DNA from: Paenibacillaceae bacterium ZCTH02-B3 | GTDB taxonomy: Bacteria > Bacillota > Bacilli > Paenibacillales > Paenibacillaceae | Assembly: GCA_002159065.1 (NCBI GenBank) | Contig: LZRV01000030.1 | Span: 1 to 38,435 of the forward strand | DNA: 38,435 bases | Direction of reading: 5' to 3' | Part shown: positions 6,431-36,462 of the stretch, in pieces | Layout: every line of letters begins with the position of its first letter | Position numbering within the stretch: the first letter of the stretch is position 1 | Made by a program: the position numbers and the translations under genes | Notes under the pieces: generated by a model | Seen by the model: only the letters and a program-made list of their open reading frames with translations | Databases searched by the model: none | What the model was told of the DNA's origin: nothing

Positions 6431-6446
6431 ATACCCCACAGGGTAT
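6431..6446 (+). promoter_or_regulatory. CstR/CsoR-type operator upstream of rhodanese-CoADR
   Basis: ATACCCCACAGGGTAT is a perfect 6-4-6 inverted repeat (ATACC-N6-GGTAT) placed 33 bp before the rhodanese start. The same spacing occurs at 28180 and 35811 before other thiol/sulfur genes, while the copper csoR site has N7. By analogy with CstR-controlled sulfide genes I infer a persulfide-responsive repressor site. Confidence 0.7.
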
Positions 6447-6478
6447 ATCACAAAAAGTTCGACAGAGGGGGATCACCC

Positions 6479-6871
6479 ATGCGGTATATGTACTGGCTCC
6501 TCCTGGCGGCGGCGGTCGCCTGGCTGGCCTACGAATTGTTCGGCCCGATCCGCGGCGTCCGGAACGTCGGCCCTTCCCGCTTCGCGCGGGAATTGGCGGA
6601 CGCCGGCCCCGCCGGGCGGATGCTGATCGACGTGCGGGAACCCCACGAGTTTGCCCGGGGCCACATCCGGGGAGCGGTCAACATTCCGCTGTCCGAGCTG
6701 GCCTCGCGGATCGGGGAAATCCCGACGGACCGGAAAATTTTCCTCTATTGCCAAAGCGGCATGCGCAGCCGGCGGGCGGCGCGGATGCTCAGCAAGCGGG
6801 GATGCCGCGACATTGTCCATCTGAACGGCGGCCTTGCGGCCTGGCGCGGCGAGACGGTCAACCGGGACTGA
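6479..6871 (+). CDS. Membrane-anchored rhodanese-like sulfurtransferase
   Basis: A 130-residue single-domain rhodanese with an N-terminal membrane anchor (about residues 3-21, WLLLAAAVAWLAY). The sulfurtransferase domain carries the conserved IDVREPHEFARGHIRGAVNIP stretch and the active-site loop CQSGMRS, with the persulfide-forming cysteine at residue 91. Single-domain rhodaneses move sulfane sulfur between persulfides, thiosulfate and thiols; a membrane anchor would keep the domain at the cytoplasmic face. AGGGGG lies 7 nt before ATG 6479. It sits 15 bp upstream of the CoADR-rhodanese gene and behind an ATACC-N6-GGTAT operator, so a role in persulfide handling under CstR control is likely. 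The exact donor and acceptor are unknown. Confidence 0.88.
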   Translation: MRYMYWLLLAAAVAWLAYELFGPIRGVRNVGPSRFARELADAGPAGRMLIDVREPHEFARGHIRGAVNIPLSELASRIGEIPTDRKIFLYCQSGMRSRRAARMLSKRGCRDIVHLNGGLAAWRGETVNRD

Positions 6872-6886
6872 CGGAGGGAGAGAACC

Positions 6887-8604
6887 ATGGGCAAAAAAGC
6901 GGTCATCGTCGGCGGCGTCGCGGGGGGCGCGACGGCGGCGGCCCGGCTTCGGCGGCTGGATGAAGAGGCGGAAATCGTGATCCTGGAACGCGGCGATTAC
7001 ATTTCCTTCGCCAACTGCGGCCTGCCATATTACATCGGGGAAGAAATCCGGGAACGCGAAAAGCTGCTGCTGCAGACGCCGGAACGGATGAAGCGGCGTT
7101 TCAACATCGACGTGCGCGTGCGCAGCGAGGTCGTCCGCGTCGACCCGGCGCGCAAAACGGTCACCGTGCGGCGCCTCGGTCCGGAGAACGGCGGCGGCCC
7201 AGACACCTCCGCCGGAGATACCGGCGCGGAAACCGCCGGCATGGCCGCCGCGGCCGAATACGAGGAATCCTACGACGTGTTGCTTCTTTCGCCGGGCGCC
7301 CGGCCGCTCCGGCCGGCCATTCCGGGGATTGACAGCGAACGGGTGCTCACGCTCCGCAACATGGCCGACGCGGACCGCATCAAGGCGCGGGTCGACCGCG
7401 GGGGAGCGCGCTCGGCCGTCGTCATCGGCGGCGGTTTCATCGGCGTGGAAATGGCGGAAAACCTCCGCCGGCGCGGCCTGGACGTGACGCTGGCGGAAGC
7501 GGCGCCGCACATCCTGCCGCCCTTCGACGACGACATGGTGCCGCTGGCCGAACAGGAACTCGCGGCCAACGGCGTGCGCCTCATCCTGGGGAACGGCGTC
7601 GCCTCTTTCGCGGACACTGCGGACGGCCTTCGCGTCACGCTGCAGAACGGCGACGTCCTTGAAGCCGATCTCGCCATCCTCGCCATCGGGGTAAAGCCCG
7701 ACACGGCTTTCCTGGAAGGCAGCGGCATCGCTCTCGGCCCCCGCGGGCACATCCTGGTGAACGAACGCATGCAAACGAATATCCCGGACATTTACGCCGT
7801 CGGCGACGCGGTGGAGGTCACCGACATCGTAAGCGGCGCGAAATCCGCGGTCCCGCTCGCCGGTCCCGCCAACCAGCAGGGCCGGATCGCGGCGGACAAC
7901 ATCTGCGGCATTCCTTCCGTATACAAAGGCGCCCAAGGCACGGCCATCGTGCGGGTGTTCGGGCTGACCGCCGCCTGCACGGGACTTAACGAACGGTCCC
8001 TCGCCCGTCTGGACATCCCGTACCGGGCGGTGCACCTGCATGCCGCCTCCCATGCCGGCTATTTTCCCGGCGCGTGCCCGATTTCCCTCAAATTGCTCTT
8101 TGACGACAACGGGCGCATCCTGGGCGCCCAGGCGCTGGGACGGGACGGCGCGGACAAGCGCATCGACGTCATCGCCGCGGCCATCCGGCTGGGCGGCACC
8201 GCGTGCGACCTCGCCGGGCTGGAGCTGGCCTACGCTCCGCCGTATTCGTCCGCGAAAGACCCGGTCAACATGGCCGGCTTCCTCGCCCAGAACGTGCTGA
8301 ACGGCCTGCTGCAAGTGGTGACGGTGCGGGATCTCGACGCCTTCGACCCTTCCCGCGCCGTTCTGCTGGACGTGCGCACCGCCGCGGAGCACGCCGCCGG
8401 CCCATACCGGGCAGCCTCCACATCCCGATGGACGAGCTGCGGGACCGCCTGCATGAACTGCCGCGCGACAGGGAAATCTGGGTCTACTGCCAGGTCGGCC
8501 AGCGCGCCTACTACGCCGCCCGCGTGCTGGCCCAGAAAGGTTTCAGCGCAAAGAACCTTTCCGGCGGCTACCGCACCTATACCATCGCCAAATGGAAGCC
8601 TTGA
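6887..8604 (+). CDS. CoA-disulfide/persulfide reductase with C-terminal rhodanese domain (one frameshift)
   Basis: A FAD-dependent pyridine nucleotide-disulfide oxidoreductase of the CoADR-RHD type: FAD motif GGVAGGATAAARLRRL, the single-cysteine active site SFANCGLPYY (C44), a second nucleotide site VVIGGGFIGVEMAENL, YAVGDAVEV, and the dimerisation segment AYAPPYSSAKDPVNMAG. A rhodanese domain follows, with WVYCQVGQRAYYA (cysteine near residue 535). The frame is broken at 8402-8403, where GGC CC-ATA lacks one C; restoring it gives the expected EHAAGPIPGSLHIPMDE and a product of about 572 residues. Without correction the protein runs to 8692 and loses the rhodanese domain. The enzyme reduces CoA disulfide or CoA persulfide with NAD(P)H. 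It pairs with the upstream rhodanese in a likely sulfide/persulfide detoxification operon. An alanine/glycine-rich insertion occupies about residues 102-122. Confidence 0.88.
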
Positions 8605-8609
8605 CGCCA

Positions 8610-8640
8610 AAAGCCCGCCTGAACAGGCGGGCTTTCCAGC
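8610..8640 (+). terminator. Terminator after the CoADR gene
   Basis: Perfect 11-bp stem AAAGCCCGCCT / AGGCGGGCTTT around a GAAC loop, 5 bp after the CoADR-rhodanese stop. The T-rich tail is short (TTT), with a further T run a little later. Confidence 0.75.
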
Positions 8641-8662
8641 CGGCTTTTTTGCAGGCCGCCGA

Positions 8663-8800
8663 TCAATCCGTCTCCCCGGGCTTCTTCCGTGAGCCGGACG
8701 GCTTGGAATCGGCCAGCTCCTGATACTGCAGTTCCAGGTCGCGGATGAAGGCTTCGATTTCTTCCGGCGTCAGAATCTCTCTTTCCTTTTTGTCTTCCAT
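8663..8800 (-). CDS. Small acidic/charged protein, 45 residues, unknown function
   Basis: A short ORF starting MEDKKEREILTPEEIEAF and ending SRKKPGETD. A very good ribosome site, GGGGAGGAG, lies 6-7 nt before ATG 8800, which is the main reason to accept it. The middle (about residues 10-30) is predicted amphipathic helix or coiled coil and the tail is Ser/Lys/Pro-rich and probably disordered. No signal peptide or metal motif is visible. It converges on the CoADR terminator and is transcribed away from the recombinase cassette. I do not recognise a family; short proteins of this composition are common in Bacillales and often uncharacterised. Confidence 0.6.
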   Translation of the reverse strand: MEDKKEREILTPEEIEAFIRDLELQYQELADSKPSGSRKKPGETD

Positions 8801-8851
8801 CTTTTTCTCCTCCCCTTCATTCGACAAAGCGAAAAACTACTCTTCTTCCCC

Positions 8852-8881
8852 ATCCCGGCCGCCGGTCGGCGGGATTTTTTT
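8852..8881 (+). terminator. Hairpin with T-tract
   Basis: ATCCCG/CGGGAT outer stem with an inner CCG/CGG pair, followed by seven T. It has rho-independent form on the plus strand but no plus-strand gene lies immediately upstream. It may be a second stop for the CoADR transcript, shielding the recombinase cassette. Confidence 0.5.
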
Positions 8882-8991
8882 CACGCATTTTTCACATTAT
8901 ATGCGGCAAATATATGTTATACGTAATAGTAAATATTGACATTGCCACCTCCCGATGTTGAAAAATGGCCGTAAATACGGCATTTTCGATC
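8882..8991. other. AT-rich leader of the recombinase cassette
   Basis: The sharp drop in GC begins here. It contains a hairpin CCGTA-AA-TACGG around 8969-8981, flanked by AAAATG/CATTTT, and several alternating AT stretches. No gene seen. Probably part of the acquired recombinase segment. Confidence 0.45.
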
Positions 8992-9015
8992 TTACAAAAT
9001 GAATGTTTTGTAAAA
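8992..9015. repeat. Candidate recombination site 1 (left, inverted relative to site 2)
   Basis: TTACAAAA-TGAATG-TTTTGTAA followed by AA. Two 8-bp inverted arms around a 6-bp asymmetric spacer is the architecture of a tyrosine-recombinase core site. All 24 bases recur as the reverse complement at 9727-9750, on the other side of the recombinase gene. Confidence 0.7.
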
Positions 9016-9067
9016 TTGTGGTTTCCATGTTATAGGCAATATATCCATTATATAGAGGGTGAACCTG

Positions 9068-9631
9068 ATGGTGGCCAGAAGAGGAGCCAATGCGGTCGAG
9101 CCCATCCGGGATCTGTCGAAGATCCGGGAAGTGAAAAACTATTTGCGGCAGCGATCGTATCGCGACTATTTCCTGTTCACCTTCGGCATCAATTCCGGTT
9201 TGCGAATCAGCGATATCCTGCCGCTGCGCGTGAAGGACGTAAGAGGGGTCAAATATTTGCGGATCAAGGAAAAGAAAACGGGCAACATCCGCAGGGTCAT
9301 CATCACGAACGCGCTGAAGCGGGAAATCGAGTTCTATACGGCCGGCATGGCCGACTCCGACTATTTGTTTCCCTCGAAACGGGGCAACAAGCCCATCAGC
9401 CGCATGCAGGCCTGGCACATCATCAACAACGCGGCCCAGGCCTGCGGCATCGACGGACCCATCGGCACCCATACGCTGCGCAAAACGTTCGGCTACCATT
9501 TCTATCAGCAAACCAAGGACGTGGCGATGCTGCAGGAAATCTTCGGCCATTCCAGTCCTTCCATCACGCTGCGATACATCGGCATCAACGGGGAAATGAT
9601 CGACCGGGCGCTGGAAAATTTCTCATTATGA
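9068..9631 (+). CDS. Minimal tyrosine recombinase/integrase
   Basis: A 187-residue phage-integrase-family protein with the complete catalytic set: R46 (NSGLRISD), K70 (KEKKTGN), H135 and R138 (HTLRKTFG), H161 (GHSS) and nucleophile Y170 (LRYIG). Most integrases have about 100 residues of N-terminal core-binding domain; here only about 35 residues precede the catalytic fold, so it is a near-minimal enzyme. Short recombinases of this size occur alone in many Bacillales genomes, usually without known function. AGAGGGTG lies 6 nt before ATG 9068; a GTG at 9059 is in frame but overlaps that site. It is flanked by inverted copies of one 24-bp site, so it could invert its own gene. No cargo gene lies within the bracket. 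Confidence 0.92.
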   Translation: MVARRGANAVEPIRDLSKIREVKNYLRQRSYRDYFLFTFGINSGLRISDILPLRVKDVRGVKYLRIKEKKTGNIRRVIITNALKREIEFYTAGMADSDYLFPSKRGNKPISRMQAWHIINNAAQACGIDGPIGTHTLRKTFGYHFYQQTKDVAMLQEIFGHSSPSITLRYIGINGEMIDRALENFSL

Positions 9632-9719
9632 TCCTTTACATCATTGTAAAGTTATCCTATAATCTCACCTGAAATTATTCATAAAATGTTCACATGTTTG
9701 TTCAAGAGCCATTATGATG

Positions 9720-9759
9720 AAGCCCGTTTTACAAAACATTCATTTTGTAAAACGGGCTT
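9720..9759. repeat. Candidate recombination site 2 within a 17-bp-arm palindrome
   Basis: Perfect inverted repeat with 17-bp arms (9720-9736 and 9743-9759) around spacer CATTCA. The inner 24 bp (9727-9750) are the exact reverse complement of site 1. The outer GCCCG/CGGGC pairs extend it into a strong hairpin that could also terminate transcription, but no T-tract follows on either strand. Confidence 0.75.
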
Positions 9760-9869
9760 GTTGCGTTTCGGATTAGAATAATTTTTAGATTTTTATATAT
9801 ACAAATATAGCAAATTTTCATGACGCTTAAAATTCCATGTATGGGATTCGCAGGATACGGTTGGCAGCC
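9760..9869. other. AT-rich tail of the recombinase segment
   Basis: The low-GC sequence continues to about 9830 and then returns to normal composition. No gene or further copy of the 24-bp site is seen. Confidence 0.4.
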
Positions 9870-9911
9870 CGAAAAAAAACGAGAGCCCGTCATTCAAGCC
9901 CGGCTCTCGTT
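9870..9911 (-). terminator. Terminator of the peptide-transport operon
   Basis: Read on the minus strand: AACGAGAGCC / GGCTCTCGTT, a 10-bp stem with a 14-nt loop, followed by a run of eight T. It lies downstream of the last ABC gene and should end that operon. Confidence 0.8.
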
Positions 9912-10245
9912 CTGTCGACAAACTCGCTCAATTCGCAACGGACTTACAGTCCGTCGCAAGGCAAAAAAGCGTGTTTGCCATTCCGGCGGACATCCGGTTC
10001 GCTGCAACGCGTCCGCCCCGCTGGTAAGCGGTTTCAACAAGGCCCGGCGCCTGCTGACAAACCGCGTTTCCGCCGATTTTTCCCGCGTCGCTTTCGCCCA
10101 CCTCCTGCGAACCTTTTGTCCGTTTAACGTTCAGGAGGCAAAGTTGCAGGACAAACTCCCCGCTGCAAACGTCTCAGGCGGATGAATGCTTCAGCCTCCC
10201 CGCCTTGATGTATGGCCGGACGTCCATTTCCGGAGGGAAAATCCG
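9912..10245. other. Non-coding 3' region of the peptide operon
   Basis: No convincing gene on either strand. An imperfect hairpin (TTCGCAACGGACT / AGTCCGTCGCAA, 9932-9959) is present. The sequence keeps the high GC of the operon, so it is probably a long 3' untranslated region or decayed sequence. Confidence 0.4.
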
Positions 10246-11262
10246 TCAGGTTCCGTAAAGATGGCAGGCGACCAGGCACCCCGGGGAAACTTCCTGCAGC
10301 CTGGGTTCCACGGACTTGCACACGTCCATTGCTTTCGGGCATCTCGAATGAAAACGGCATCCCTTTGGAGGATTGGAGGGACTGGGCAGTTCCCCCTTCA
10401 GGATGATGCGCTCCCTTTGCCGCACAGGTTTCGGATCCGGGACCGGAATGGCCGAGATGAGCGCCTGCGTGTAAGGATGCAACGGGTTCCGGTACAACTG
10501 TTCCTTCGTCGTCAATTCAACGATCCTGCCCAAGTACATCACGCCGACCCGGTCGCTGATGTGCTTGACGACACTGAGGTTGTGCGAAATGAACACATAC
10601 GTGAGCCGGTACTCCTCCTGCAGATCCTTCATCAGATTGAGGATCTGGGACTGGATGGAGACGTCCAGAGCGGAAACCGGTTCATCGGCGATGATCAGCT
10701 TGGGCCTGAGCGCCAGCGCCCGGGCGATGGCGATACGCTGTTTCTGTCCCCCGCTGAACTCGGAAGGCCGCCGATGCAGATGCGACGAATTGAGTCCCAC
10801 GCTTTCCAAGAGCTCCACCACTTTTTCCAGCCGCTCTTTCCTCGACGAATGCAGACCGTGGATCAACATCGGCTCCTCGATGATCCTTTGGACCGTATGG
10901 CGGGGATTGAGCGACGCGTTCGGATCCTGAAACACCATCCGCATCTCTTTCCGCCGGCGTCTCAATTCTTCGGGGTCCAGACGAAGCAGCGATTCGCCTT
11001 CAAACACCACATCCCCTTCCGTCGGCGGCGCGAGCATGAGCAGCACCCGTCCCAGGGTCGATTTGCCGCAGCCCGATTCCCCCACAAATCCCAGGGTTTC
11101 GCCCCGGTATACCGTCAGGGAAACATCATCCACCGCTCTTACGTGGCCAACGGTTTTTCTGAGGAATCCCTTTTGGATCGGAAAGTACTTTTTGACGTTT
11201 TTGGCTTCAAGCAAGATTTCCCTTCCCGGTGGAAGGACTTCCCGCATTTTTTCCATACCCAT
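10246..11262 (-). CDS. Oligopeptide ABC transporter ATP-binding protein (OppF/DppF type)
   Basis: A 338-residue ATPase that energises a cytoplasmic-membrane peptide importer. Walker A is GESGCGKST, the signature is [15 protein letters not shown], Walker B is [12 protein letters not shown], and the C-terminal oligopeptide domain has [17 protein letters not shown], whose cysteines in OppF/DppF relatives bind an iron-sulfur cluster. The N-terminal linker before [12 protein letters not shown] is longer than usual. AAAAGGGAAG precedes the start. It is the last gene of the minus-strand operon, about 45 bp after the OppD-like partner; the pair forms the ATPase heterodimer of permeases at 13.3-15.1 kb. 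Confidence 0.93.
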
Positions 11263-11307
11263 CGCTTCCCTTTTGCTGCAAGCTGCAGTTGAATGATCCG
11301 TACCTGG

Positions 11308-12273
11308 CTATTGGTTCATCCAGCAGGCCGCCAGGTGTCCCCGTCCGACAGGCGCAAGAGGCGGCGCTTCCTCGAAACACCTCGCGCTTGCATGTTCGCA
11401 GCGCGGCGCAAACGCGCATCCCCTGGGCATATCTTTCGGAGTCGGCACGTTGCCGGGAATGCTGTACAGACGTTTGGTTTCCTGATCCAGCTGCGGAATG
11501 GAACGCATAAGTCCCGCGGTGTAGGGATGTTTGGGATTCCGGAACAATTCGCGGACGTCCGCTTCCTCCACGATTTTGCCGGCGTACATGACCATCACGC
11601 GTTCGCACATATCCGCCACCACGCCCAAATCATGGGAAATCATGAGCAGGGACATGTTCAGTTCATCCTTCAGCCGCCGGATCAGATCCAGAATTTGCGC
11701 CTGAATGGTCACGTCCAGGGCGGTGGTGGGTTCATCGGCGATCAGCAGCTTGGGGCCGCAGGCAATGGCCATGGCGATCATGACCCGTTGCCGCATGCCG
11801 CCGGACAGCTGATGGGGATAGCTCTGTGCAACTTCCTCCGGCCTGGAAATGCCGGCTTCCCCGAGCAATTCGACGGATTTCCGGAACGCCTCTTTCCTGC
11901 CCGCTTTTTTGTGAATTTGCAGCACTTCCCCGATCTGGTCGCCGATCTTGATCAGGGGGTTGAGGGACGTCATCGGTTCCTGAAAGATCATGGAAATCTG
12001 GTTGCCCCGGTGTTTGGTCATTTCCTTTTCCGGGAGCTCCAGCAGGTTTTTCCCCTCGAACAGAACTTCCCCCTGCACGATTTCCCCGGGCGGCGTCGGT
12101 ACAAGGCGCATGATGGTGAGCGAGGTGACGCTTTTGCCGCAGCCGCTTTCCCCGACCAGGGCCACGCTTTCCCCCCGGCCGATGGAAAAACGGATGCCGT
12201 CCACGGATTTGACCAGCCCCTGGTCGGTGTGAAAATAAACTTTCAGGTCCTTGACCTCCAGCAGCGGATTCAT
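11308..12273 (-). CDS. Oligopeptide ABC transporter ATP-binding protein (OppD/DppD type)
   Basis: A 321-residue partner ATPase: Walker [10 protein letters not shown], signature [15 protein letters not shown], Walker [13 protein letters not shown], and the C-terminal cysteine-containing segment [16 protein letters not shown]. The start is ATG 12273, with AAGGGGAA upstream; it overlaps the stop of the preceding serine-hydrolase gene by 4 bp (ATGA), so translation is coupled. That overlap places the hydrolase firmly inside the transporter operon. Substrate specificity cannot be read from the ATPase. Confidence 0.93.
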
Positions 12274-13286: not shown

Positions 13287-13306
13287 GATCTTTCCTCCAT
13301 CCGGGC

Positions 13307-14173: not shown

Positions 14174-14199
14174 CCCGTCGTCCCTCCCTTCCCATCGGC

Positions 14200-15117: not shown

Positions 15118-15148
15118 GCGGACCCTCTCCTTTGGCTTCCGCAGGCGT

Positions 15149-15179: not shown

Positions 15180-15195
15180 GGCCATGCCGCATGTC

Positions 15196-25566: not shown

Positions 25567-25602
25567 CGATCCGCTTGCGCCTGAGCCGGTGAAACGCGCG
25601 TT

Positions 25603-26194: not shown

Positions 26195-26830
26195 CTAACC
26201 TGTGATTTTCAGGCACGGCCCGTGTCCGGTGGCGACAAACCGGGGGCGCAGCCGCAGCAGGTTTTTCTTGAGCTCCTTCCATTTCTCCTTGTCCGGCGCC
26301 TGCTCGATCCGATCCGCCACGTCCTGCCAATCGGCCTCGATCACGGCGCCGTGCGCCCTCCCGGAACGAAAGATCAGATCGCCGCAGAACAGGATGCCGC
26401 GCCTCGCCTCGTAACCGATCAGCCCGTCCCGCAGATGCACTTCGGACGGAAAGGCGAAGAACTCAAGCTCGAAACCGCCGGCAACCAGCCTTTCCCAGGG
26501 CCTCTTGACAAGAAATTCGTCCGTGATCCCAAAGCCGGCCAATTCCCGCGACGACACTTCCGAACAGACCGGCCGGGCTCCGGGAAAATGCTTCAAGATG
26601 AGCGGCAGTCCGCCGCACTCGTCGGATTCGAAATGCGAAAAGAAAACATACCGGACCGCCCGGCCGCCAAGGACGCGTTTCAGCTGCGGGATGAGTCCTT
26701 CCGCGTGCAGCGCGTTGCCCGTATGGACGAGCAGCGGTTCGTCCGCAAGCAGCAGATACTGGTGGCAGGTCAGATCGTACCGCGGATCGTACGCGCTGAA
26801 TTGATACAGATCGTCGAAAATGTTCAGCAA
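26195..26830 (-). CDS. ODP/flavodiiron-type metallo-beta-lactamase-fold protein
   Basis: About 211 residues forming a single metallo-beta-lactamase domain of the flavodiiron (ODP) branch. The diiron motif H-x-E-x-D-E is in FFSHFESDECGGL; the third histidine is in PSEVHLRDGL, the bridging Asp in ILFCGDLIF and the last His in VATGHGPC. No flavodoxin or rubredoxin domain follows, so it is a stand-alone ODP as in some oxygen- or NO-related sensors and oxidoreductases. It is not the ETHE1/persulfide-dioxygenase branch, which has HxHxDH. TTG 26830 is preferred because GGGAGGGG lies 6-9 nt upstream; a GTG at 26851 precedes that site. It is the last gene of a three-gene operon with TlpA- and Lgt-like proteins. 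Its role in thiol or oxygen response is inferred. Confidence 0.82.
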   Translation of the reverse strand: MLNIFDDLYQFSAYDPRYDLTCHQYLLLADEPLLVHTGNALHAEGLIPQLKRVLGGRAVRYVFFSHFESDECGGLPLILKHFPGARPVCSEVSSRELAGFGITDEFLVKRPWERLVAGGFELEFFAFPSEVHLRDGLIGYEARRGILFCGDLIFRSGRAHGAVIEADWQDVADRIEQAPDKEKWKELKKNLLRLRPRFVATGHGPCLKITG

Positions 26831-26857
26831 AGGATCGCCCCCTCCCGGCACCGCGTC

Positions 26858-27421
26858 CTATTGGATCCGGGAAACCGCTTCTTTCATTTTGTCATATTGC
26901 ATCGGTCCGTGGAAGATTTCCCGGATGACGCCGCCGGCGTCCAGCAGAAAAGTCGTGGGATAGGAGACGACCTTGTAGGCGTTCATGACGGCTCCTTCTT
27001 CGTCCAGAACGACGGGAAACGTCAGTTGCCGCTCGTTTGCGAACTCCCGCACACGGTCCGCGTTTTTCTCGGTGGGCGTCAGATTGACCCCCAGGATCAC
27101 CACATCCCGCGACCGGTAATCCTCATAAAATTTTTGCAGGTGGGGCATTTCCGCCCGGCACGGAGGACACCACGTCGCCCAGAAATTGACCAGCACCGTC
27201 TTCCCCCTGAAATCGGACAGACGGATCGTATTCCCCTGCAAGTCCTCCAGCGCAAAATCGGGGGCAAGCCGCCCTTTCCGGATGCCCGTTTCCAGGCCGG
27301 TAACCGCCGCTTCCGCCGCCGGTCCGGCATCCGGGGAAGCCCCGCGGAGATATTCATATGTCCCGTAAACGACAAGGCCGATCAAAACAAGAAGCGCGAT
27401 CAGGTTATGTTTCATCCGCAC
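26858..27421 (-). CDS. TlpA/ResA-type membrane-anchored thiol-disulfide oxidoreductase
   Basis: A 187-residue thioredoxin-fold protein facing the outside of the membrane. There is an uncleaved anchor at about residues 7-20 (LIALLVLIGLVVYG), a linker, then the AhpC/TSA-redoxin domain with the redox motif WCPPC (C85/C88), the central insertion typical of TlpA/ResA, and cis-Pro in SYPTTFLLD. These proteins reduce disulfides, for example in cytochrome c maturation, or donate electrons to exported thiols. GGGGAGG precedes GTG 27421, with ATG 27415 as an alternative. The start overlaps the stop of the Lgt-like gene by 17 bp. The operon begins behind an ATACC-N6-GGTAT operator shared with rhodanese-CoADR and thioredoxin-cstR. 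Confidence 0.9.
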   Translation of the reverse strand: MRMKHNLIALLVLIGLVVYGTYEYLRGASPDAGPAAEAAVTGLETGIRKGRLAPDFALEDLQGNTIRLSDFRGKTVLVNFWATWCPPCRAEMPHLQKFYEDYRSRDVVILGVNLTPTEKNADRVREFANERQLTFPVVLDEEGAVMNAYKVVSYPTTFLLDAGGVIREIFHGPMQYDKMKEAVSRIQ

Positions 27422-28094
27422 GGAATCCTCCCCGGTTCCTTTTCCCGTCCAGCCAGGCCCAGCCGGTCAGCGCCGCGGCGGCGAGCAGAAAGAGGAGCTG
27501 CTGTTTGCCGAATGCCAACAGCCACACCGGCCGGTCCGGAACGAGAAACCACAGCAAGGCGTGTCCCAGCGAAAACCAGACGGCGTGGACGACACCCGTG
27601 GTCGCACCGGTCTTCCTTGACGAAAACCAAAGCGACGCCAGCAAAACCGCCGTGAACCCGGCGCTGGCCGCGTGAAACAAGGCCGGTTCCTCTCCCGCCG
27701 AAACCAGCAGAATCTCGCGGGCCGACCAGCCCGCGAAAGCGAAGGCGGCGAAATGCCCGAATGCCGTTTTGTACGGCATGCGATGTTTGCGGACTTTGAG
27801 GGCCGAATATCCCGCGGCCGCAAGGGCTGCCAGCCATCTGCCGCGTTCTCCGCCGTCAAAATAGAGCAGCGAGACCGGCTGCCGCACGGCTTCAACCGGG
27901 TGGACGAGCAAATAGCTCGCTTTCCAGACGATCAGCCACAGCCAGAACGCGTTGGACGCGCAAGACAGGATCCACTCCCGCTCCGGGGCGCTTCGCAGCC
28001 GGAACCGCAACGCCAGCCAGCCGGCCGCGCCAAACAGGAGATACGAGACCAATGGTCCGTTCAGGACCAGGGAACCGATCCGAAGGCCGTCCAA
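27405..28094 (-). CDS. Polytopic membrane protein resembling Lgt without its catalytic residues
   Basis: A 229-residue protein with about six to seven transmembrane helices. LNGPLVSYLLFGAAGWLAL resembles the first helix of prolipoprotein diacylglyceryl transferase, and HPVEAVRQPVSLLYFDGGERG resembles the Lgt segment NPxE...W.GGxxxHGG. The conserved His of Lgt is replaced here and the RxGNFxNxE motif is missing, so transferase activity is doubtful. It is translationally overlapped with the TlpA-like gene, which suggests a redox or anchoring partner for it. TTG 28094 lies 7 nt after AAGGAGG. The Lgt relationship is my reading of partial motifs; a novel membrane partner of TlpA is equally possible. 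Confidence 0.7.
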   Translation of the reverse strand: MDGLRIGSLVLNGPLVSYLLFGAAGWLALRFRLRSAPEREWILSCASNAFWLWLIVWKASYLLVHPVEAVRQPVSLLYFDGGERGRWLAALAAAGYSALKVRKHRMPYKTAFGHFAAFAFAGWSAREILLVSAGEEPALFHAASAGFTAVLLASLWFSSRKTGATTGVVHAVWFSLGHALLWFLVPDRPVWLLAFGKQQLLFLLAAAALTGWAWLDGKRNRGGFRADET

Positions 28095-28179
28095 ATCGCC
28101 GCCTCCTTGCCGATGCCGTTCAAATCACGGGTTCGCAACTTGCCGATCCGCACTTCATGGATCAACATTTTTTATACAT

Positions 28180-28199
28180 ATACCAGTATGGGTATTATA
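28180..28199 (-). promoter_or_regulatory. CstR-type operator and -10 of the Lgt-like/TlpA/MBL operon
   Basis: ATACC-AGTATG-GGTAT at 28180-28195, with a minus-strand TATAAT at 28194-28199 overlapping its edge. The flanking text is almost the same as at 35803-35835 before thioredoxin (ATACATATACC ... GGTATTATAC), so the two promoters look duplicated. The -35 is poor (T-rich). Confidence 0.7.
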
Positions 28200-29483: not shown

Positions 29484-29545
29484 TGGCGCACATGAGCTGA
29501 ATTCGGCCGAATCGCACGGCTTTGGCCGCCGATCCGCACGCGTGC

Positions 29546-29570
29546 CGGTTCCCCCCTCACGGGGGAACCG
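29546..29570 (+). promoter_or_regulatory. Hairpin between ehuB and ehuC
   Basis: A perfect 10-bp stem CGGTTCCCCC / GGGGGAACCG with a 5-nt loop and no T-tract, 30 bp before ehuC. It has the same position and form as the hairpin after the peptide-binding protein at 15149; it probably tunes the ratio of binding protein to permease. Confidence 0.65.
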
Positions 29571-29599
29571 CACCATTGCACACAGGGAGAGGGGGCGGG

Positions 29600-30256
29600 A
29601 TGATCGAGGTTTATTTCGAAAAGATCGTGCCGCTGATGCTAAGAGGCGTTCCGATGACGGTGCTGCTGATGCTCTATGGAACGCTGCTGGCGGCCGTGTT
29701 GTCTTTCGTCTTCGGCCTGGCAAGATTATCCCGGTTCGCCGCCGTTCGCGGCACCGCGAGCGTGCTGGTCGAACTGATCCGGGGCACCTCGTTGATCGTG
29801 CAATTGTTCTGGATCTATTACGCCCTGCCGCATCTCGGCGTCGAACTGCCGAAACTGCCCGCCGCGGTCATTGCGATCGGTGTCAATTACGGCGCATACG
29901 GCTCCGAGATTGTGCGCAGCGCGATTCTGGCCGTCCCCAGGGAACAAAGGGAAGCGGCGATCGCGCTGAATTTCAACAGTTACCAGCGCATGCGCCATAT
30001 CATCGTTCCGCAGGCCTTGCCACGCATGCTGCCTCCTTTCGGCAACCTTCAGGTCGAATTGCTCAAGGGCACCGCCTTGGCCTACTTTATCGGACTTGGG
30101 GAAGTCTTTTACCGAACGATGACGCAGCTGAACTATTATCTGTACTTACTGGTGCCGATCTTCACGGGGCTTCTCGTCATCTATTTTGCCCTGTCCCAGC
30201 TGGTGCTGCTCTTGTACCGCTGGGCGGAGAGGCGACTTGCGGCGGGGAGGATGTGA
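29600..30256 (+). CDS. ehuC: Ectoine ABC transporter permease EhuC
   Basis: A 218-residue HisM/GlnP-type permease. It has VPMTVLLMLYGTLLAAVLSF near the N-terminus, the RGTSLIVQLFWIYYALP segment of amino-acid permeases, and the EAA coupling loop EQREAAIALNFNSYQRMRHI. About five transmembrane helices. ATG 29600 follows a purine-rich GAGAGGGGGCGGG site; longer readings upstream run into the hairpin. It pairs with EhuD, whose start lies 3 bp after this stop. Confidence 0.9.
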   Translation: MIEVYFEKIVPLMLRGVPMTVLLMLYGTLLAAVLSFVFGLARLSRFAAVRGTASVLVELIRGTSLIVQLFWIYYALPHLGVELPKLPAAVIAIGVNYGAYGSEIVRSAILAVPREQREAAIALNFNSYQRMRHIIVPQALPRMLPPFGNLQVELLKGTALAYFIGLGEVFYRTMTQLNYYLYLLVPIFTGLLVIYFALSQLVLLLYRWAERRLAAGRM

Positions 30257-30259
30257 CGG

Positions 30260-30964
30260 ATGAACGAACTGATTCCCGCGCTGCTTCGCGGATTGTGGAT
30301 TACCGTCCAGGCGACGTTCGGCGCCTTCGCGCTGGCGTGCGCGCTCGGGCTGATCCTTGCCATTTTGCGCAGGGCGCGCATCAAGTGGGTCTCCGTGCCG
30401 ATGGTCTGGCTGATTGAATTCATCCGCACGACCCCGCTCGTGGTTCAGGCGGTCTTCATGTGGATGGCGCTCCCGCGGCTGATCGGAATGCCGTTGTCGG
30501 CGCTCACCGTCGGGATTCTGTCCCTCGGTCTGCATTACAGCGCATACCTGTCCGAAGTCTACCGTTCCGGCATTGAAGGCGTGCCCCGAGGACAATGGGA
30601 GGCGGCCGTTGCGCTGAATTTCAGTCCGGCACAGAAGTGGCTGCGCATCATCTTGCCGCAGGCCATTCCGCCGGTATTGCCGGTGATGGGCAATTACCTG
30701 ATTGTCATGTTCAAGGAAGTGCCCGTGCTCATGGCCATCACACTGGGCGAAATGTTGCTTGCGGCCAACAGTTACATTGCCTCGACGTTCGCGGACGGCA
30801 TTGTGCCTTACAGTCTTGTGGCGCTGTTCTTCCTCGCCGTCAGCTACCCTTCGTCGCTTCTTGTCCGCCTGATGGAACGCCGTTTGAACCGGCAGCGCGG
30901 GACGCAATATGGAAATCGGATTCGAAATCGTCGAAGTCGGATCCGTGGTGAACGAACCGTATGA
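30260..30964 (+). CDS. ehuD: Ectoine ABC transporter permease EhuD
   Basis: A 234-residue second permease of the same family: LLRGLWITVQATFGAFALAC, the EFIRTTPLVVQAVFMWMALP segment and the EAA loop GQWEAAVALNFSPAQKWLRII. The C-terminal tail (residues about 215-234) is unusually basic, rich in Arg and Asn. It forms the membrane channel with EhuC. Its end overlaps the ribosome site of ehuA. Confidence 0.9.
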   Translation: MNELIPALLRGLWITVQATFGAFALACALGLILAILRRARIKWVSVPMVWLIEFIRTTPLVVQAVFMWMALPRLIGMPLSALTVGILSLGLHYSAYLSEVYRSGIEGVPRGQWEAAVALNFSPAQKWLRIILPQAIPPVLPVMGNYLIVMFKEVPVLMAITLGEMLLAANSYIASTFADGIVPYSLVALFFLAVSYPSSLLVRLMERRLNRQRGTQYGNRIRNRRSRIRGERTV

Positions 30965-30977
30965 AGGAGGCGGCAAG

Positions 30978-31817
30978 TTGAGCATGCACATGCACGCGGT
31001 ACCGCTTGCGGAAACGGCGGCGGAGCGCGGTTCCGTGCGGCCGATGGTCCGTTTCCGCAATATACGCAAATCGTTCGGGGAACTGGAAGTGCTGAAGGGA
31101 GTCGATCTTGACATCCTGCCCGGCGAGAAAGTGGCGGTCATCGGACCGAGCGGCTCCGGCAAGACAACGCTGGGGAGACTGTTGATGACGCTGGAGGAGC
31201 CGACTTCGGGCACGATTGAAGTGGACGGCGAATACCTGTGGCATATGGAGAAGCGCGGGAAACTCGTACGCGCCGACGAGAAGCATCTTCATCGGATGCG
31301 CTCAAAGATCGGCATGGTATTCCAGCATTTCAACCTGTTCCCGCATATGACGATCCTGCGCAACGTCACCGAAGCGCCGATCCGCGTCCTCCGCATGCGG
31401 CGGAATGAGGCGGAACGATTGGCCCTCGAGATGCTGGACAAAGTCGGACTGGCCGACAAGCGGGACAATTACCCGTCGCAGTTGTCGGGCGGCGAGAAAC
31501 AGCGCGTGGCGATCGCCCGGGCATTGGTCATGAAACCGCAAGTCATGATTTTCGATGAAGTAACCTCCGCGCTCGATCCCGAGCTCGTCGGCGAAGTGCT
31601 CGCCGTCATCAAAGAGATCGCCGCGGACGGGAAGATGACGATGCTGCTCATCACCCATGAAATGGAGTTCGCGCGGGATGTGGCCGACCGGGTGATCTTC
31701 ATTGCGGATGGCCGCATCGTTGAACAGGGTCCGCCGAGCCGCATATTCACGCAGCCGGAAAGTGAAAGGCTGCAATCGTTCCTGGGCAGGTTCCGCGCTT
31801 ATCGGGCCGGGCGTTGA
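30978..31817 (+). CDS. ehuA: Ectoine ABC transporter ATP-binding protein EhuA
   Basis: A 279-residue polar-amino-acid-type ATPase: Walker A GPSGSGKTT, Q-loop MVFQHFNLFPHMT, signature LSGGEKQRVAIARAL, Walker B VMIFDEVTSALDPE and LLITHEMEFARDVADRV. TTG 30978 lies exactly 7 nt after AAGGAGG (30964-30970), which itself overlaps the ehuD stop; an ATG two codons later is the alternative. It drives import through EhuCD from EhuB. In several bacteria ehu genes are salt-induced together with ect genes or serve catabolism; here the biosynthetic genes follow directly. Confidence 0.92.
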   Translation: MSMHMHAVPLAETAAERGSVRPMVRFRNIRKSFGELEVLKGVDLDILPGEKVAVIGPSGSGKTTLGRLLMTLEEPTSGTIEVDGEYLWHMEKRGKLVRADEKHLHRMRSKIGMVFQHFNLFPHMTILRNVTEAPIRVLRMRRNEAERLALEMLDKVGLADKRDNYPSQLSGGEKQRVAIARALVMKPQVMIFDEVTSALDPELVGEVLAVIKEIAADGKMTMLLITHEMEFARDVADRVIFIADGRIVEQGPPSRIFTQPESERLQSFLGRFRAYRAGR

Positions 31818-31923
31818 CTTTCGGCGTCCCATATGAACGGACCGGCCGACATCCCTCCGGATGCCGGAGTGGCAGGCGTTGCGGCCAGATATCAAAGTAT
31901 TCCGATGCGAAAGGAGGTGAAAA

Positions 31924-32421
31924 ATGTCGCGCGAGAGCGATCAGCTGATCATCCGAAAAACGGAAGCGAGGGACGGGCCCCGCGCATGGCAATTGGTGAA
32001 GGACACCGGCGTGTTGGATCTGAACTCCGCCTATGCCTACATCGTGTTGTGCGATTACTTTTCCGATACGTGCGCGATCGCAGAGGAGGCGGGCAAGGCG
32101 GTCGGGTTCGTCTCGGCCTTCCGCGATCCCCGCGATCCGAGCGTGCTGTTTATCTGGCAGGTGGCGGTGGACGCCGCCCGGCGCGGGGAAGGCATCGCCT
32201 ATCGCATGATTCGGCATGTGCTGCGGCGCGCATCATGCCGCGGCGTGCGCACAATTGAATTGACCATAGCCCCGACAAATCGGGCTTCGCAAGGGTTGTT
32301 CCGCAAATTGGCGAGAGCGTTGGGGTGTGACGTGCAAGTCGGAAGAGGATACGAGGCCGCCATGTTCCCGGGAGACGCCCACGAAGACGAGGATTTCTAT
32401 CGCATCGGTCCGCTGCCTTGA
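31924..32421 (+). CDS. ectA: L-2,4-diaminobutyrate acetyltransferase EctA
   Basis: A 165-residue GNAT-fold enzyme that acetylates L-2,4-diaminobutyrate to N-gamma-acetyl-DABA with acetyl-CoA, the second step of ectoine synthesis. LVKDTGVLDLNSAYAYIVLC is the EctA signature near the N-terminus; FIWQVAVDAARRGEGIAYRM is the acetyl-CoA binding loop, and TIAPTNRASQGLFRKLA follows. AAAGGAGG lies 7 nt before ATG 31924. It begins about 106 bp after ehuA, so the biosynthetic genes may use read-through or a weak own promoter. Confidence 0.95.
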   Translation: MSRESDQLIIRKTEARDGPRAWQLVKDTGVLDLNSAYAYIVLCDYFSDTCAIAEEAGKAVGFVSAFRDPRDPSVLFIWQVAVDAARRGEGIAYRMIRHVLRRASCRGVRTIELTIAPTNRASQGLFRKLARALGCDVQVGRGYEAAMFPGDAHEDEDFYRIGPLP

Positions 32422-32475
32422 CATGACGGAGGTCTGCCGGAGTCCGTCCGAAATCATACGGAGGAGGAATCCGTT

Positions 32476-33753
32476 TTGATCAATGCCCAAGCCAAGGTGA
32501 AACCCAGTTTGCATGTCTTCGAAACGCTGGAGTCGGAGGTGCGCAGCTATTGCCGCAGGTTCGCCACGGTGTTCAGCAGGGCGAAGGATTACAAGCTGTG
32601 GGATACGGCGGGCAATGAGTACATCGATTTTTTTGCCGGTGCCGGTTCCTTGAATTACGGCCATAACAATGAAAAGATCAAGCGAAAACTTGTCGACTAT
32701 CTGCTGAATGACGGCATTACCCACAGTTTGGACATGGCGACGCAGGCCAAAGAGACGTTCCTGCGGGAGTTTCACCGGATCATCCTTGCCCCTCGCGGAC
32801 TGAATTACAAAATCATGTTTCCGGGGCCGACAGGAACGAATGCCGTAGAGAGCGCGCTGAAGATCGCGCGCAAAGTCACGGGACGCAAGACGATCATCAG
32901 CTTTACCAACGCCTTTCATGGAATGACGGCCGGCTCGCTGGCCGTTACCGGCAACAAATTCAAGCGGCAAGGCGCCGGCATGCCGCTCGATCATGCCGTA
33001 TTCATGCCGTATGACAATTATTTCGGCGAGGAAGTGGACACGGCGGAATATATGAAGAAGCTGATCGATGACAGCGGCAGCGGCGTCGAACTCCCCGCCG
33101 CGGTGATTCTGGAAACCGTCCAGGGGGAGGGCGGCCTGAATGTCGCCAGCTTCGCCTGGCTAAGGAAAATTGAACATATCTGCCGCGAGCGCGGCATTCT
33201 GCTCATTGTCGACGACGTGCAAATGGGGTGCGGTCGCACCGGAACGTTCTTCAGCTTCGAACCGGCAGGAATCTGTCCGGACATCGTATGCCTGTCGAAG
33301 TCGATCGGCGGCATGGGTCTGCCGTTCGCGCTGACGCTGCTCAAGCCGGAGCTGGACGTCTGGGAACCGGGCGAGCATAACGGCACGTTCCGCGGCAACA
33401 ATCTCGCGTTTGTCGCTGCGACCGCCGCGCTGGATTACTGGCGGGACGATTCGTTCAGCCGCGAAATCGCCGCCAAGAGTGAGATGATTCGCTCCGCGCT
33501 GCGGGAAATGGCGGAGAAGCATGCTGTGCTGAAAGGAACCGTTCGCGGCCGCGGACTCATCCAGGGGCTGCACTTCCCGGATGCGGGAGTGGCGGAAGCG
33601 GTGTGCGGGGAGGCGTTCAGGCGCAGGCTGATCATGGAAACGTCCGGCGCGGACAACGAGGTTGCGAAGATTATGCCGCCGCTTACGATCGACAGGGATG
33701 GATTGAAGCAAGGGCTTGCCATTCTGGATGAGAGCCTTGCGGTTGTAAGCTGA
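32476..33753 (+). CDS. ectB: L-2,4-diaminobutyrate transaminase EctB
   Basis: A 425-residue class III (PLP-dependent) aminotransferase, converting aspartate-semialdehyde and glutamate to DABA, the first ectoine-specific step. Landmarks: [76 protein letters not shown] and the PLP lysine in [14 protein letters not shown] 32476 is used, with GGAGGAGG about 8 nt upstream. It lies 54 bp after ectA. No dedicated aspartokinase (ask_ect) is present in the cluster, so the precursor must come from general aspartate metabolism. Confidence 0.95.
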
Positions 33754-33773
33754 TTTCATGCGCAAAAATGGAC

Positions 33774-33784
33774 GGGGGGGGGGG
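33774..33784 (+). repeat. Run of eleven G upstream of ectC
   Basis: An uninterrupted G11 tract ends 9 bp before the ectC start and occupies the place of its Shine-Dalgarno sequence. Such tracts slip during replication, so length variation would change ribosome-site spacing. It could equally be a base-calling inaccuracy. Confidence 0.8.
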
Positions 33785-33793
33785 ACAGAGCAT

Positions 33794-34192
33794 ATGATTG
33801 TCAAAAAATTGCAGGACATTATCGGAACCGCGGACGACGTGCGGACCGACACATGGGCAAGCCGCCGGTTGCTGCTGCGCAAGGATGGGATGGGCTTCTC
33901 GCTGCACGATACGATCATCTACGCGGGAACGGAAACCCGCATCTGGTACAAGCATCATCTGGAGGCGGTCTACTGCATTGAAGGGAAAGGCGAAATCGAA
34001 TTGGTGGACACCGGCGAAGTCATTCCGATCGAACCCGGCACGTTGTACGCTCTGGACGGGCACGAGAAACATCTTCTGCGGGCCGAACGGGACATGCGCA
34101 TGATCTGTGTCTTCAATCCGCCGGTGACGGGACGGGAAGTGCATGACGAAAGCGGCGTGTACCCGCTGCTGGAGGAGGTGGGCGGCCGATGA
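33794..34192 (+). CDS. ectC: L-ectoine synthase EctC
   Basis: A 132-residue cupin that cyclises N-gamma-acetyl-DABA to ectoine by water elimination. Family landmarks: MIVKKLQDIIGTADDVRTD, W-ASRRLLLRKDGMGFSLHD, RIWYKHHLEAVYCIEGKGE (metal-binding cupin strand), IEPGTLYALDGHEKHLLRA and ICVFNPPVTGREVHDESGVYP. ATG 33794 gives the canonical N-terminus; the upstream region is the G11 tract. The stop overlaps the ectD start by 4 bp. Confidence 0.95.
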   Translation: MIVKKLQDIIGTADDVRTDTWASRRLLLRKDGMGFSLHDTIIYAGTETRIWYKHHLEAVYCIEGKGEIELVDTGEVIPIEPGTLYALDGHEKHLLRAERDMRMICVFNPPVTGREVHDESGVYPLLEEVGGR

Positions 34193-35064
34193 CGATCGAC
34201 CTTTATCCTTCGCGTGTGAAAAGCCGGCCGGAAATTTTGGAGCGGCAGGACCCGGTCGTCTACCCGGGCTGCGAAGACAAGGGGCCGTTGACGCGCGAAC
34301 AGCTGAATTTCTATGAGAAGAACGGGTACTTGTTTCTGGAAAAATTCTTTGAAGACGAGGAAATCCGGCATTTCCGGGATGAAATGAAGCGGATTTGGCG
34401 GCAATGCCGGGGAAGCGACGCTCCGGAGGTGATCAAGGAGCCGGACAGCGACGAAGTGCGCTCTGTGTTCGCCGTTCACCGCGACTACGAAGCGTTCCGC
34501 AAGCTGGCCCGGCACGACAAGCTGGTGGCCGCCGTCCGGCAGATTCTTGGCAGCGACGTGTATATCCATCAATCGCGCATCAATTTTAAACCCGGATTCA
34601 CCGGAAAGGAATTCTATTGGCACTCCGATTTCGAGACGTGGCATGTGGAGGACGGCATGCCGCGGATGCGCGCGCTGAGCTGTTCGATCGCGCTTGAACC
34701 GAATTATCCATATAACGGGCCGCTGATGGTCATCCCCGGTTCGCACAAGAAGTTTGTCTCATGCGTCGGGGAGGCGCCGGAAGACCACTACAAATATTCG
34801 CTGCGCAAGCAAGTCTACGGGACGCCGGATGACGAGAGCATGAGGCGGCTGGTCGAGGAGAGCGCCATCGAAATGCCGACTGGCGGCATCGGCTCGATGC
34901 TGCTGTTCGACTGCAACATCATGCACGGTTCGAACAGCAACATCACGCCGTATCCGCGCAGCAACATCTTCCTGGTGTTCAACAGCGTGGAGAACAAGTT
35001 GGTCGAGCCGTTCTCCGGGAAGAAGCCGCGGCCGGAATATCTCGCCCATCGGGAATACGTGTAA
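34189..35064 (+). CDS. ectD: Ectoine hydroxylase EctD
   Basis: A 291-residue Fe(II)/2-oxoglutarate-dependent dioxygenase that converts ectoine to 5-hydroxyectoine. The iron triad is H145, D147 (FYWHSDFETWH) and H246 (NIMHGSN), matching the spacing known in EctD. RINFKPGFTGKEFYWHSDFE is the diagnostic EctD stretch. The C-terminal segment is also present, so the protein is complete. Its start is coupled to ectC through ATGA at 34189-34192. Presence of ectD means the strain can make hydroxyectoine, associated with heat and desiccation tolerance. Confidence 0.95.
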   Translation: MTIDLYPSRVKSRPEILERQDPVVYPGCEDKGPLTREQLNFYEKNGYLFLEKFFEDEEIRHFRDEMKRIWRQCRGSDAPEVIKEPDSDEVRSVFAVHRDYEAFRKLARHDKLVAAVRQILGSDVYIHQSRINFKPGFTGKEFYWHSDFETWHVEDGMPRMRALSCSIALEPNYPYNGPLMVIPGSHKKFVSCVGEAPEDHYKYSLRKQVYGTPDDESMRRLVEESAIEMPTGGIGSMLLFDCNIMHGSNSNITPYPRSNIFLVFNSVENKLVEPFSGKKPRPEYLAHREYV

Positions 35065-35082
35065 CGGATACGGCTCCGGGAT

Positions 35083-35135
35083 CCGGAAGTCGTCGACTAC
35101 GGGACGTTTGAACCCGTCCACTCGACGACTTCCGG
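35083..35135. terminator. Long hairpin at the end of the ectoine cluster
   Basis: A 14-bp perfect outer stem (CCGGAAGTCGTCGA / TCGACGACTTCCGG), with an inner ACGGG/CCCGT stem. There is no T-tract on either strand. It lies between convergent ectD and cstR, so it may insulate both transcripts or stabilise their 3' ends. Confidence 0.6.
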
Positions 35136-35168
35136 GTTCCCGATCATTTCGACGACAATTCACCATGC

Positions 35169-35429
35169 CTATCTGCTTTTGATCAACAATTCGACGGCTT
35201 CCTGCACGAGTCTGCCGGTCTCGTTGCCGGCCGCCCTCTCCTCCAGGATGCACCGCTCCAGATTGACCGCGACGATATGGGCGATGGCCCTGTCCACCGC
35301 GTTGCGGACGGCCGCGAGCTGACTGACCACATCCTTGCAGGCTTTCCCCTGCTCCATCATGTTCAGGACGCCCCGGACCTGTCCTTCCACGCGGAGAAGC
35401 CTTTTTTTGATGGCATCGTCGTATTTCAT
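35169..35429 (-). CDS. cstR: Persulfide-sensing repressor CstR (CsoR family)
   Basis: An 86-residue CsoR/RcnR-fold regulator. Cys31 (GKACKDV) and Cys60 (NLERCIL) fall at the two dithiol positions known for Staphylococcus CstR. The copper-ligand His of CsoR, in its GHMRSC context, is absent: the residue before the second Cys is NLE. The fold starts MKYDDAIKKRLLRVEGQ and ends VQEAVELLIKSR, closely like recalled CstR. ATG 35429 is preferred, with GGGGAGA upstream. CstR is released from DNA when persulfides crosslink its two cysteines. It lies 23 bp downstream of thioredoxin in one operon with an ATACC-N6-GGTAT operator, and probably also controls the rhodanese-CoADR and Lgt-like/TlpA/MBL operons. 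Confidence 0.88.
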   Translation of the reverse strand: MKYDDAIKKRLLRVEGQVRGVLNMMEQGKACKDVVSQLAAVRNAVDRAIAHIVAVNLERCILEERAAGNETGRLVQEAVELLIKSR

Positions 35430-35452
35430 CGGTTTTCCGTCTCTCCCCACAA

Positions 35453-35773
35453 TCAACCCGCGTATTGCAGGATCGCGGATTTCAGCTTCTGGAGCGGCTG
35501 GACTCCGACAAAGGTTGCGATTTCGATCCCGCCGACAAACAGCTTCATGGTCGGGATGCCCCGGATTTGATGCCTGACGGCGGCAAAGGGATTTTCATCC
35601 ACGTTGATTTTCGCGATGACCGCTTCATTTTCCACTTCCCGGGCCAATTGGTCCAGAATCGGTCCCATCATGCGGCAGGGACCGCACCAGGGAGCCCAGA
35701 AATCCACCAGCACCACCCTGTTGTCCCTGATGATTTGATCCAGTGTGCTGTCCGTCGCCGTAATGGTCGCCAT
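35453..35773 (-). CDS. Thioredoxin
   Basis: A 106-residue cytoplasmic thioredoxin with the classical WCGPC site (C30/C33, DFWAPWCGPCRMMGP), cis-Pro in GIPTMKLFVGG, and normal length. GGAGGGG lies 6 nt before ATG 35773; longer readings would start within the promoter. As the first gene of the cstR operon it probably serves to reduce protein persulfides or disulfides formed during sulfide stress, in addition to any housekeeping role. Another general trxA may exist elsewhere. Confidence 0.93.
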   Translation of the reverse strand: MATITATDSTLDQIIRDNRVVLVDFWAPWCGPCRMMGPILDQLAREVENEAVIAKINVDENPFAAVRHQIRGIPTMKLFVGGIEIATFVGVQPLQKLKSAILQYAG

Positions 35774-35810
35774 GAAAAACCCCTCCTTGCATGCGCCTTT
35801 CTTAATACAT

Positions 35811-35853
35811 ATACCCGTATAGGTATTATACACGATCTTCGCCCTTGTGTCAT
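35811..35853 (-). promoter_or_regulatory. Thioredoxin-cstR promoter with CstR-type operator
   Basis: On the minus strand -35 ATGACA (35848-35853) and -10 TATAAT (35825-35830) are 17 bp apart. Immediately downstream, touching the -10, lies ATACC-CGTATA-GGTAT (35811-35826). This implies auto-repression by CstR. Confidence 0.75.
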
Positions 35854-36457: not shown

Positions 36458-36462
36458 GTAAG

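Follow-up and report, generated by a model that had tools for sequence, protein, structure and literature searches.

In Staphylococcus aureus, passages of PMC5480029 describe the cst regulon as composed of tauE, cstR, cstA, cstB and sqr, and its CsoR-family repressor CstR, which has two sensing cysteines and rhodanese-type targets, as likely directly controlling a single operon. In Enterococcus faecalis, the CstR targets named in the relevant part of PMC9405070 include RhdA, RhdB and a CoA persulfide reductase. In Bacillus licheniformis, elemental sulfur releases the CstR-type repressor YrkD, which occupies two promoter regions; mutation of its predicted sites or addition of elemental sulfur abolishes this binding (PMC9918477, sections on YrkD). 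TTHA1953, a CstR-like repressor of Thermus thermophilus, controls the SoxW thioredoxin (113-fold in the mutant) according to the TTHA1953 passages of PMC10318464. Here we analyze a 38,435-nucleotide stretch from Paenibacillaceae bacterium ZCTH02-B3 (LZRV01000030.1; hereafter, the window), which is the entire contig C30 of a 3.12-Mb genome in 187 contigs and carries three copies of the palindrome ATACC-N6-GGTAT. We consider it probable (about 80%), judging from sequence, that these palindromes are operators of the CstR protein encoded in the window and that they serve the operons they precede, i.e. those for (i) a membrane rhodanese and a CoA-disulfide reductase (CoADR)-type flavoprotein, (ii) an Lgt-fold membrane protein, a TlpA-type oxidoreductase and an ODP protein, and (iii) a thioredoxin and CstR itself (cf. 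Table 1).

The predicted system is a CstR regulon of a known kind, scattered over four places. It resembles that of S. aureus in its CsoR-family repressor, two sensing cysteines and rhodanese-type targets, and differs from it in the added genes for thioredoxin, TlpA, the Lgt-fold protein and ODP (compared with the regulon as given in PMC5480029); no convincing SQR was found here, unlike in the S. aureus regulon with its sqr gene. Rhodaneses and a CoADR-type flavoprotein as predicted CstR targets are shared with E. faecalis, although those parts of the E. faecalis account that concern CstR targets make no mention of envelope thioredoxin, Lgt-fold or ODP genes (PMC9405070). The YrkD system is described in PMC9918477 as a single cluster of 11 genes, sqr, pdo and NreBC among them, in contrast to the scattered units found here; we infer that the YrkD sites predicted there are equivalent to the N6 sites, the passages concerned giving no site letters. 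As in the present case, TTHA1953 has targets far from its own gene, including the SoxW thioredoxin and an uncharacterised membrane protein, but it controls Sox oxidation and the binding motif given for it is TACNNTACNNNNGTANNGTA (PMC10318464, same passages).

The palindrome in the window and in the genome

With each palindrome counted a single time and not per strand, the window contains three exact copies of ATACC-N6-GGTAT, and 100 dinucleotide shuffles yielded none. In the whole genome five exact sites were found, compared with zero for the reversed pattern, and four of them lie 28 to 85 bp upstream of sulfur or thiol genes. The fourth of these is located on another contig (C77:55218, locus L005), 28 bp before a gene encoding a 102-aa stand-alone rhodanese. 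When one mismatch was allowed, the genome contained 34 sites versus 13 for the reversed pattern; the 29 one-mismatch sites were checked with 18 reference proteins, and none precedes a sulfur gene of this set, while one falls within a TlpA-like gene. Since these 29 sites are spread over 30 one-letter variants of the palindrome, we estimate that about one exact site per genome is to be expected by chance. Overall, the exact palindrome marks sulfur genes in four of five cases. An earlier note on this DNA, made from the sequence alone, had pointed to the three exact palindromes and had asked whether such sites gather at sulfur genes throughout the genome, and both points held. Its gene assignments were recovered with Pfam and NCBIfam for the rhodanese, TlpA, ODP, thioredoxin and CsoR-family proteins, but the rhodanese part that it had ascribed to CoADR turned out to be out of frame.

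Table 1. Predicted operators and genes in the window. Evidence is that of the assignment.
Feature	Position	Strand	Evidence
Predicted CstR operator ATACC-N6-GGTAT, before membrane rhodanese and CoADR	6431..6446	+	exact match, N6 spacing
Membrane-anchored single-domain rhodanese, Cys in CQSGMRS	6479..6871	+	PF00581, 1.8e-22; anchor read by eye
CoA-disulfide reductase-type flavoprotein	6887..8692	+	TIGR03385, 7.6e-146, best match
ODP, stand-alone (flavodiiron-type metallo-beta-lactamase fold)	26195..26851	-	PF19583, 1.6e-8, over cut-off
TlpA/ResA-type thiol oxidoreductase, N-terminal anchor-like segment, WCPPC	26858..27421	-	PF00578, 8.6e-36
Lgt-fold membrane protein without Lgt signature	27405..28094	-	placed by fold
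Predicted CstR operator ATACC-N6-GGTAT, before Lgt-like, TlpA and ODP genes	28180..28195	-	exact match
cstR, CsoR-family repressor	35169..35456	-	PF02583, 2.6e-20; best PDB match 7mq1/7mq2
Thioredoxin, WCGPC	35453..35773	-	TIGR01068, 6.3e-31, above cut-off
Predicted CstR operator ATACC-N6-GGTAT, before thioredoxin and cstR	35811..35826	-	exact match
Predicted copper CsoR operator ATACC-N7-GGTAT (contrast, outside the regulon)	6194..6210	-	in csoR-copZ-copA promoter

Half-site spacing distinguishes CstR from CsoR loci

Copper CsoR operators are given as TAC-X9-GTA in the part of PMC3902906 that deals with them; they have TAC...GTA arms and G tracts in common with the N6 sites of the window, but their center is one base pair longer. 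Because TAC-X9-GTA is equal to ATACC-N7-GGTAT, every spacing from 2 to 12 was counted near the relatives of CstR and of CsoR in one set of 59 family genomes. CstR matches were present in 37 and CsoR matches in 58 of these, and 30 loci were returned for each protein, one locus of our own genome being included in either set. At the sensing columns, all 30 CstR loci encode Cys-Asn-Cys, while Cys-His-Cys was found in all 30 CsoR loci and in the CsoR of the window. The CstR loci contained 12 exact sites (in 11 loci), every one of them with N6 spacing and zero at the other spacings, and around the CsoR genes 29 of the 33 exact sites were N7 (17 loci), with one each for N5, N6, N8 and N12. The sole exact N6 site in the latter set is the 6431 site of the window. 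With one mismatch allowed, the CstR loci had 30 N6 sites in 23 of 30 loci and no N7 site; the CsoR loci had 39 N7 sites in 20 of 30, two N6 sites and 1 to 11 at each other spacing (N12, 11). Exact N6 sites of the relatives stand before CoADR, thioredoxin, cstR, TusA-rhodanese and rhodanese genes. These counts suggest that half-site spacing separates the two regulators, N6 going with CstR and N7 with copper CsoR. Such a difference of a single base pair would offer a simple way of assigning targets to the CstR and CsoR paralogues in Bacilli by sequence alone, and it allows the assignment of adjoining copper and sulfur genes to be tested.

Next to the 6431 site lie the divergent csoR-copZ-copA genes. 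Given this neighborhood and the arms common to CsoR and CstR sites, the site might be a copper CsoR operator, either for csoR-copZ-copA itself or for a rhodanese operon induced by copper, which would leave only two operons of the window as CstR targets. We find this improbable for several reasons: (i) the csoR promoter has an N7 site of its own, embedded in a promoter-like TTGACT-17-TACTAT (6217-6189), and the N6 center of the 6431 site does not conform to TAC-X9-GTA; (ii) the other 29 CsoR loci contain no exact N6 site and one at one mismatch (L123); (iii) the 6431 site is only 32 bp ahead of the rhodanese start (ATG at 6479); and (iv) in a relative (L067), an exact N6 site stands just before the CoADR gene, with no csoR in its 12.6 kb except a cross-match to its CstR. 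Since the csoR promoter has its own N7 site and spacing appears to tell the regulators apart, the 6431 site most likely belongs to CstR despite csoR next door. No sigma-70-like match was reported at 6431 on the rhodanese strand. As for the second gene of this operon, the CoADR match to TIGR03385 amounts to 486 bits, which is below the NCBIfam cut-off of 579, and the C-terminal rhodanese part continues in another open reading frame (8203-8604), which points to a frameshift, either of the gene itself or of the assembly.

The regulator and its own operon

The genome contains three CsoR-family genes, namely csoR beside copZ-copA, cstR in the window, and a CstR-like gene on contig C57. The window CstR has the CsoR-family domain, retains both sensing cysteines of CstR, has Asn in place of the copper-binding His of CsoR, and is encoded near a predicted N6 operator, which together place it by sequence among CstR proteins. 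Its best PDB match, 7mq1/7mq2, was deposited as csoR; a figure legend in PMC9774590 labels 7MQ2 as CstR. The 35811 site lies 37 bp upstream of the thioredoxin ATG (35773) and overlaps the -10 element of a promoter-like ATGACA-17-TATAAT matching at 11 of 12 positions (35853-35825). As the thioredoxin and cstR genes overlap by 4 bp, cstR would regulate itself.

The N6 spacing recurs in nine plasmid-borne cstR loci of other Bacilli. CstR matches were found in 191 plasmid records; 50 of them were listed and nine, all from Bacilli, were fetched, the remaining 41 listed records including four from Staphylococcus as well as actinobacterial, Leuconostoc, Lactobacillus-type and Stenotrophomonas ones. 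The nine loci contain 15 exact N6 sites, at least one per locus, no exact N7 site (two at one mismatch), and one exact N12 site that overlaps a near-N6 site. Two Staphylococcus records are annotated as encoding persulfide-sensing CstR together with cstB and tauE, one of them also with cstA and sqr, and on the plasmids of S. pasteuri and S. saprophyticus N6 palindromes lie between cstR and its divergent neighbor. In a B. licheniformis record, the CstR match is unannotated; two exact N6 sites follow it, and an N6 site with one mismatch precedes it.

The Lgt-like-TlpA-ODP operon

The 28180 site lies 85 bp upstream of the TTG start of the Lgt-like gene (28094). By eye, the first half of the site coincides in part with a TATAAT, which repeats the layout of the thioredoxin-cstR promoter; a promoter search at its threshold reported none on the operon strand and one on the other strand. 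The flanks TATAATACC...GGTATATGTAT (minus strand) are common to the 28180 and 35811 sites, as the earlier note had observed. Similar flanks accompany the one-mismatch site before the yrkD-like gene in the B. licheniformis record, and for this reason they may belong to a promoter layout common to such loci instead of tying the 28180 and 35811 sites to each other in particular.

The first protein of the operon matched no Pfam or NCBIfam family, including PF01790, and lacks the motif GRxGNFxNxExxG, which we take to be the Lgt signature. In two PF01790 proteins from related loci the signature was complete in one and incomplete in the other, which makes the motif alone a soft test of Lgt membership. 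In its alignment with the flavodiiron protein 1ycf, the ODP protein keeps H-x-E-x-D, H and D, presumably the iron-binding residues; the last His, in TGHGP, falls outside the aligned stretch. The protein hence has an ODP domain with diiron ligand residues. No flavodoxin domain was matched by Pfam in its 218 aa, so that it does not qualify as a full flavodiiron protein.

In 24 related Lgt-like loci (L047-L070), the Lgt-like gene sits with TlpA, mostly also with CcdA, and often near rhodanese genes. The window operon differs from these in being without CcdA, in having the diiron ODP gene in addition, and in standing behind a CstR-type site. The earlier note had regarded the Lgt-like, TlpA and ODP genes as an unusual extension of a CstR regulon. 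The CstR assignment itself was strengthened by the spacing and context of the sites in the family and in the nine plasmid loci, but the extension has precedents: the link to thiol proteins is foreshadowed by SoxW in Thermus (TTHA1953 passages of PMC10318464) and by Lgt-like/CcdA/TlpA modules that, in some of the Paenibacillus and Brevibacillus loci, have rhodanese or cst genes nearby. What is unusual, to judge by the predicted operator, is direct CstR-type control of an Lgt-fold/TlpA operon together with the added ODP. In the open-access literature searched for CstR in combination with TlpA, CcdA, flavodiiron or Lgt proteins, we found no account of this operon.

Two further observations concern such modules in relatives. 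In two loci, an Lgt gene (PF01790; L050, 261-1208, and L057, 87-893) is found no more than 6 kb away from the Lgt-like one. A Mesobacillus foraminis plasmid (L172, 1-3829) carries, beside its cst cluster, genes for a redoxin, OsmC, a two-component pair and CcdA, as well as for a protein of 207 aa (Lgt-like match of 35% over 60 residues), and thus shows a similar neighborhood in Bacillaceae.

Observations that weigh against a scattered CstR regulon

Several findings speak against the assignment of these sites to one CstR. The S. aureus CstR likely controls one operon (PMC5480029, as above), compared with four scattered units here. Seven of the 30 CstR loci are without an N6 site even at one mismatch, and at this level spacings other than N6 also yield sites around CstR genes (nine for N11, seven for N12 and 0 to 3 for each of the remainder). 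The fifth exact genome site (C31:4864, locus L004) is directly behind a gene for a YhcN/YlaJ spore lipoprotein, and the 18 reference sulfur or copper proteins gave no match up to about 1.5 kb away from it, nor in a 9-kb stretch; it looks like background, which fits the one exact chance site expected. Across the 59 family genomes N6 sites number 404 versus 222 for the reversed pattern, so that single sites in larger genomes can be due to chance, and in one locus (L159) an exact N6 site lies inside an Lgt-like coding region. Taken to the extreme, the site behind the lipoprotein gene, for which no sulfur link was found, and the less than twofold excess in the family could suggest that the whole pattern is nothing but a common promoter sequence recurring by chance; the empty shuffles, the position of four of the five genome sites and the preference for N6 over ten other spacings make this hardly credible.

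The 28180 site deserves separate consideration. In the 24 related Lgt-like loci, no N6 site was found within 300 bp upstream at up to one mismatch (only 94 bp being covered in L047), which indicates that CstR control of the Lgt-like operon is not conserved. Upstream of the Lgt-like gene, 12 of these loci share a conserved box of the CTT[TA]ATCA type (-53 to -68), possibly a response-regulator site. Thus, 28180 might be CstR-type by ancestry or chance, its operon being controlled by another factor, as seemingly in the relatives. This seems unlikely to us, because the box of the relatives was not found in the window, the N6 site overlaps a TATAAT as in the thioredoxin-cstR promoter, and a sequence for which we expect about one exact copy per genome or less sits 85 bp before a thiol operon.

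The second CstR-like gene (L131, about 4700-5080, on contig C57) raises the question of which repressor acts. By tblastn its first part is 78% identical over about 50 residues, and its open piece matches PF02583; if functional, its product could bind N6 sites as well, and some of these sites might then be regulated by it and not by the window CstR. We assign a low probability to this, as its reading frame is split over two frames in the assembly and the first 9 kb of C57, which hold the gene, contain no N6 site at up to one mismatch. The gene converges with one of pyruvate-phosphate-dikinase type (PF01326) and is upstream of and divergent from open reading frames, one with DUF2249 (PF10006).

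Proposed mechanism

If the three palindromes are indeed CstR operators, the sulfide defence of the bacterium, itself of a known type, probably comes on at the same time as the membrane protein, the exported-type thioredoxin and the iron-enzyme-like protein. Reduced CstR would occupy the N6 sites and so block RNA polymerase, the 28180 and 35811 sites each overlapping a TATAAT. Upon oxidation of sulfide to persulfide or polysulfide, its cysteines would become sulfur-bridged as in S. aureus CstR, leading to release from DNA; both steps are adopted from the parts of PMC5480029 and PMC9774590 on CstR. All four units as well as cstR would then be expressed, rhodaneses moving sulfane sulfur and CoADR reducing CoA persulfide. 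Thioredoxin would reduce cytosolic protein persulfides (two thioredoxin-like proteins of S. aureus can reduce protein persulfides; PMC6196236), and TlpA would do the same on the outer side of the membrane, receiving its electrons from a CcdA whose gene lies elsewhere. Our guess is that the Lgt-fold protein would partner TlpA in the membrane and that ODP would be a diiron protein linked to O2/NO or to sulfur. If this overall reading is true, CstR signaling would extend from cytosolic persulfide clearance to membrane thiol chemistry.

A more far-reaching and rather doubtful version is that the CstR regulon captured an envelope redox operon, in which the Lgt-fold protein, TlpA and an O2-type diiron protein would form a persulfide-disposal arm acting both at the membrane and outside it, replacing the missing SQR/CstB route. 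This would have followed the exchange of a two-component-type promoter for a CstR promoter, the loss of CcdA and the gain of a Clostridium-like ODP.

Other features of the window

An ectoine/hydroxyectoine cluster (31924-35064), comprising genes for a GNAT acetyltransferase, a class-III aminotransferase, ectoine synthase (PF06339) and a PhyH dioxygenase, lies beside the thioredoxin-cstR operon, and 17 consecutive tRNA genes occupy the minus strand at 36370-38127. At the start of the contig (17-874) there is an IS110-family transposase gene (PF02371). By eye, the N-terminus of CopA (4990-5160) begins with a run of repeated RDA/RDV-like residues encoded by simple-repeat DNA.

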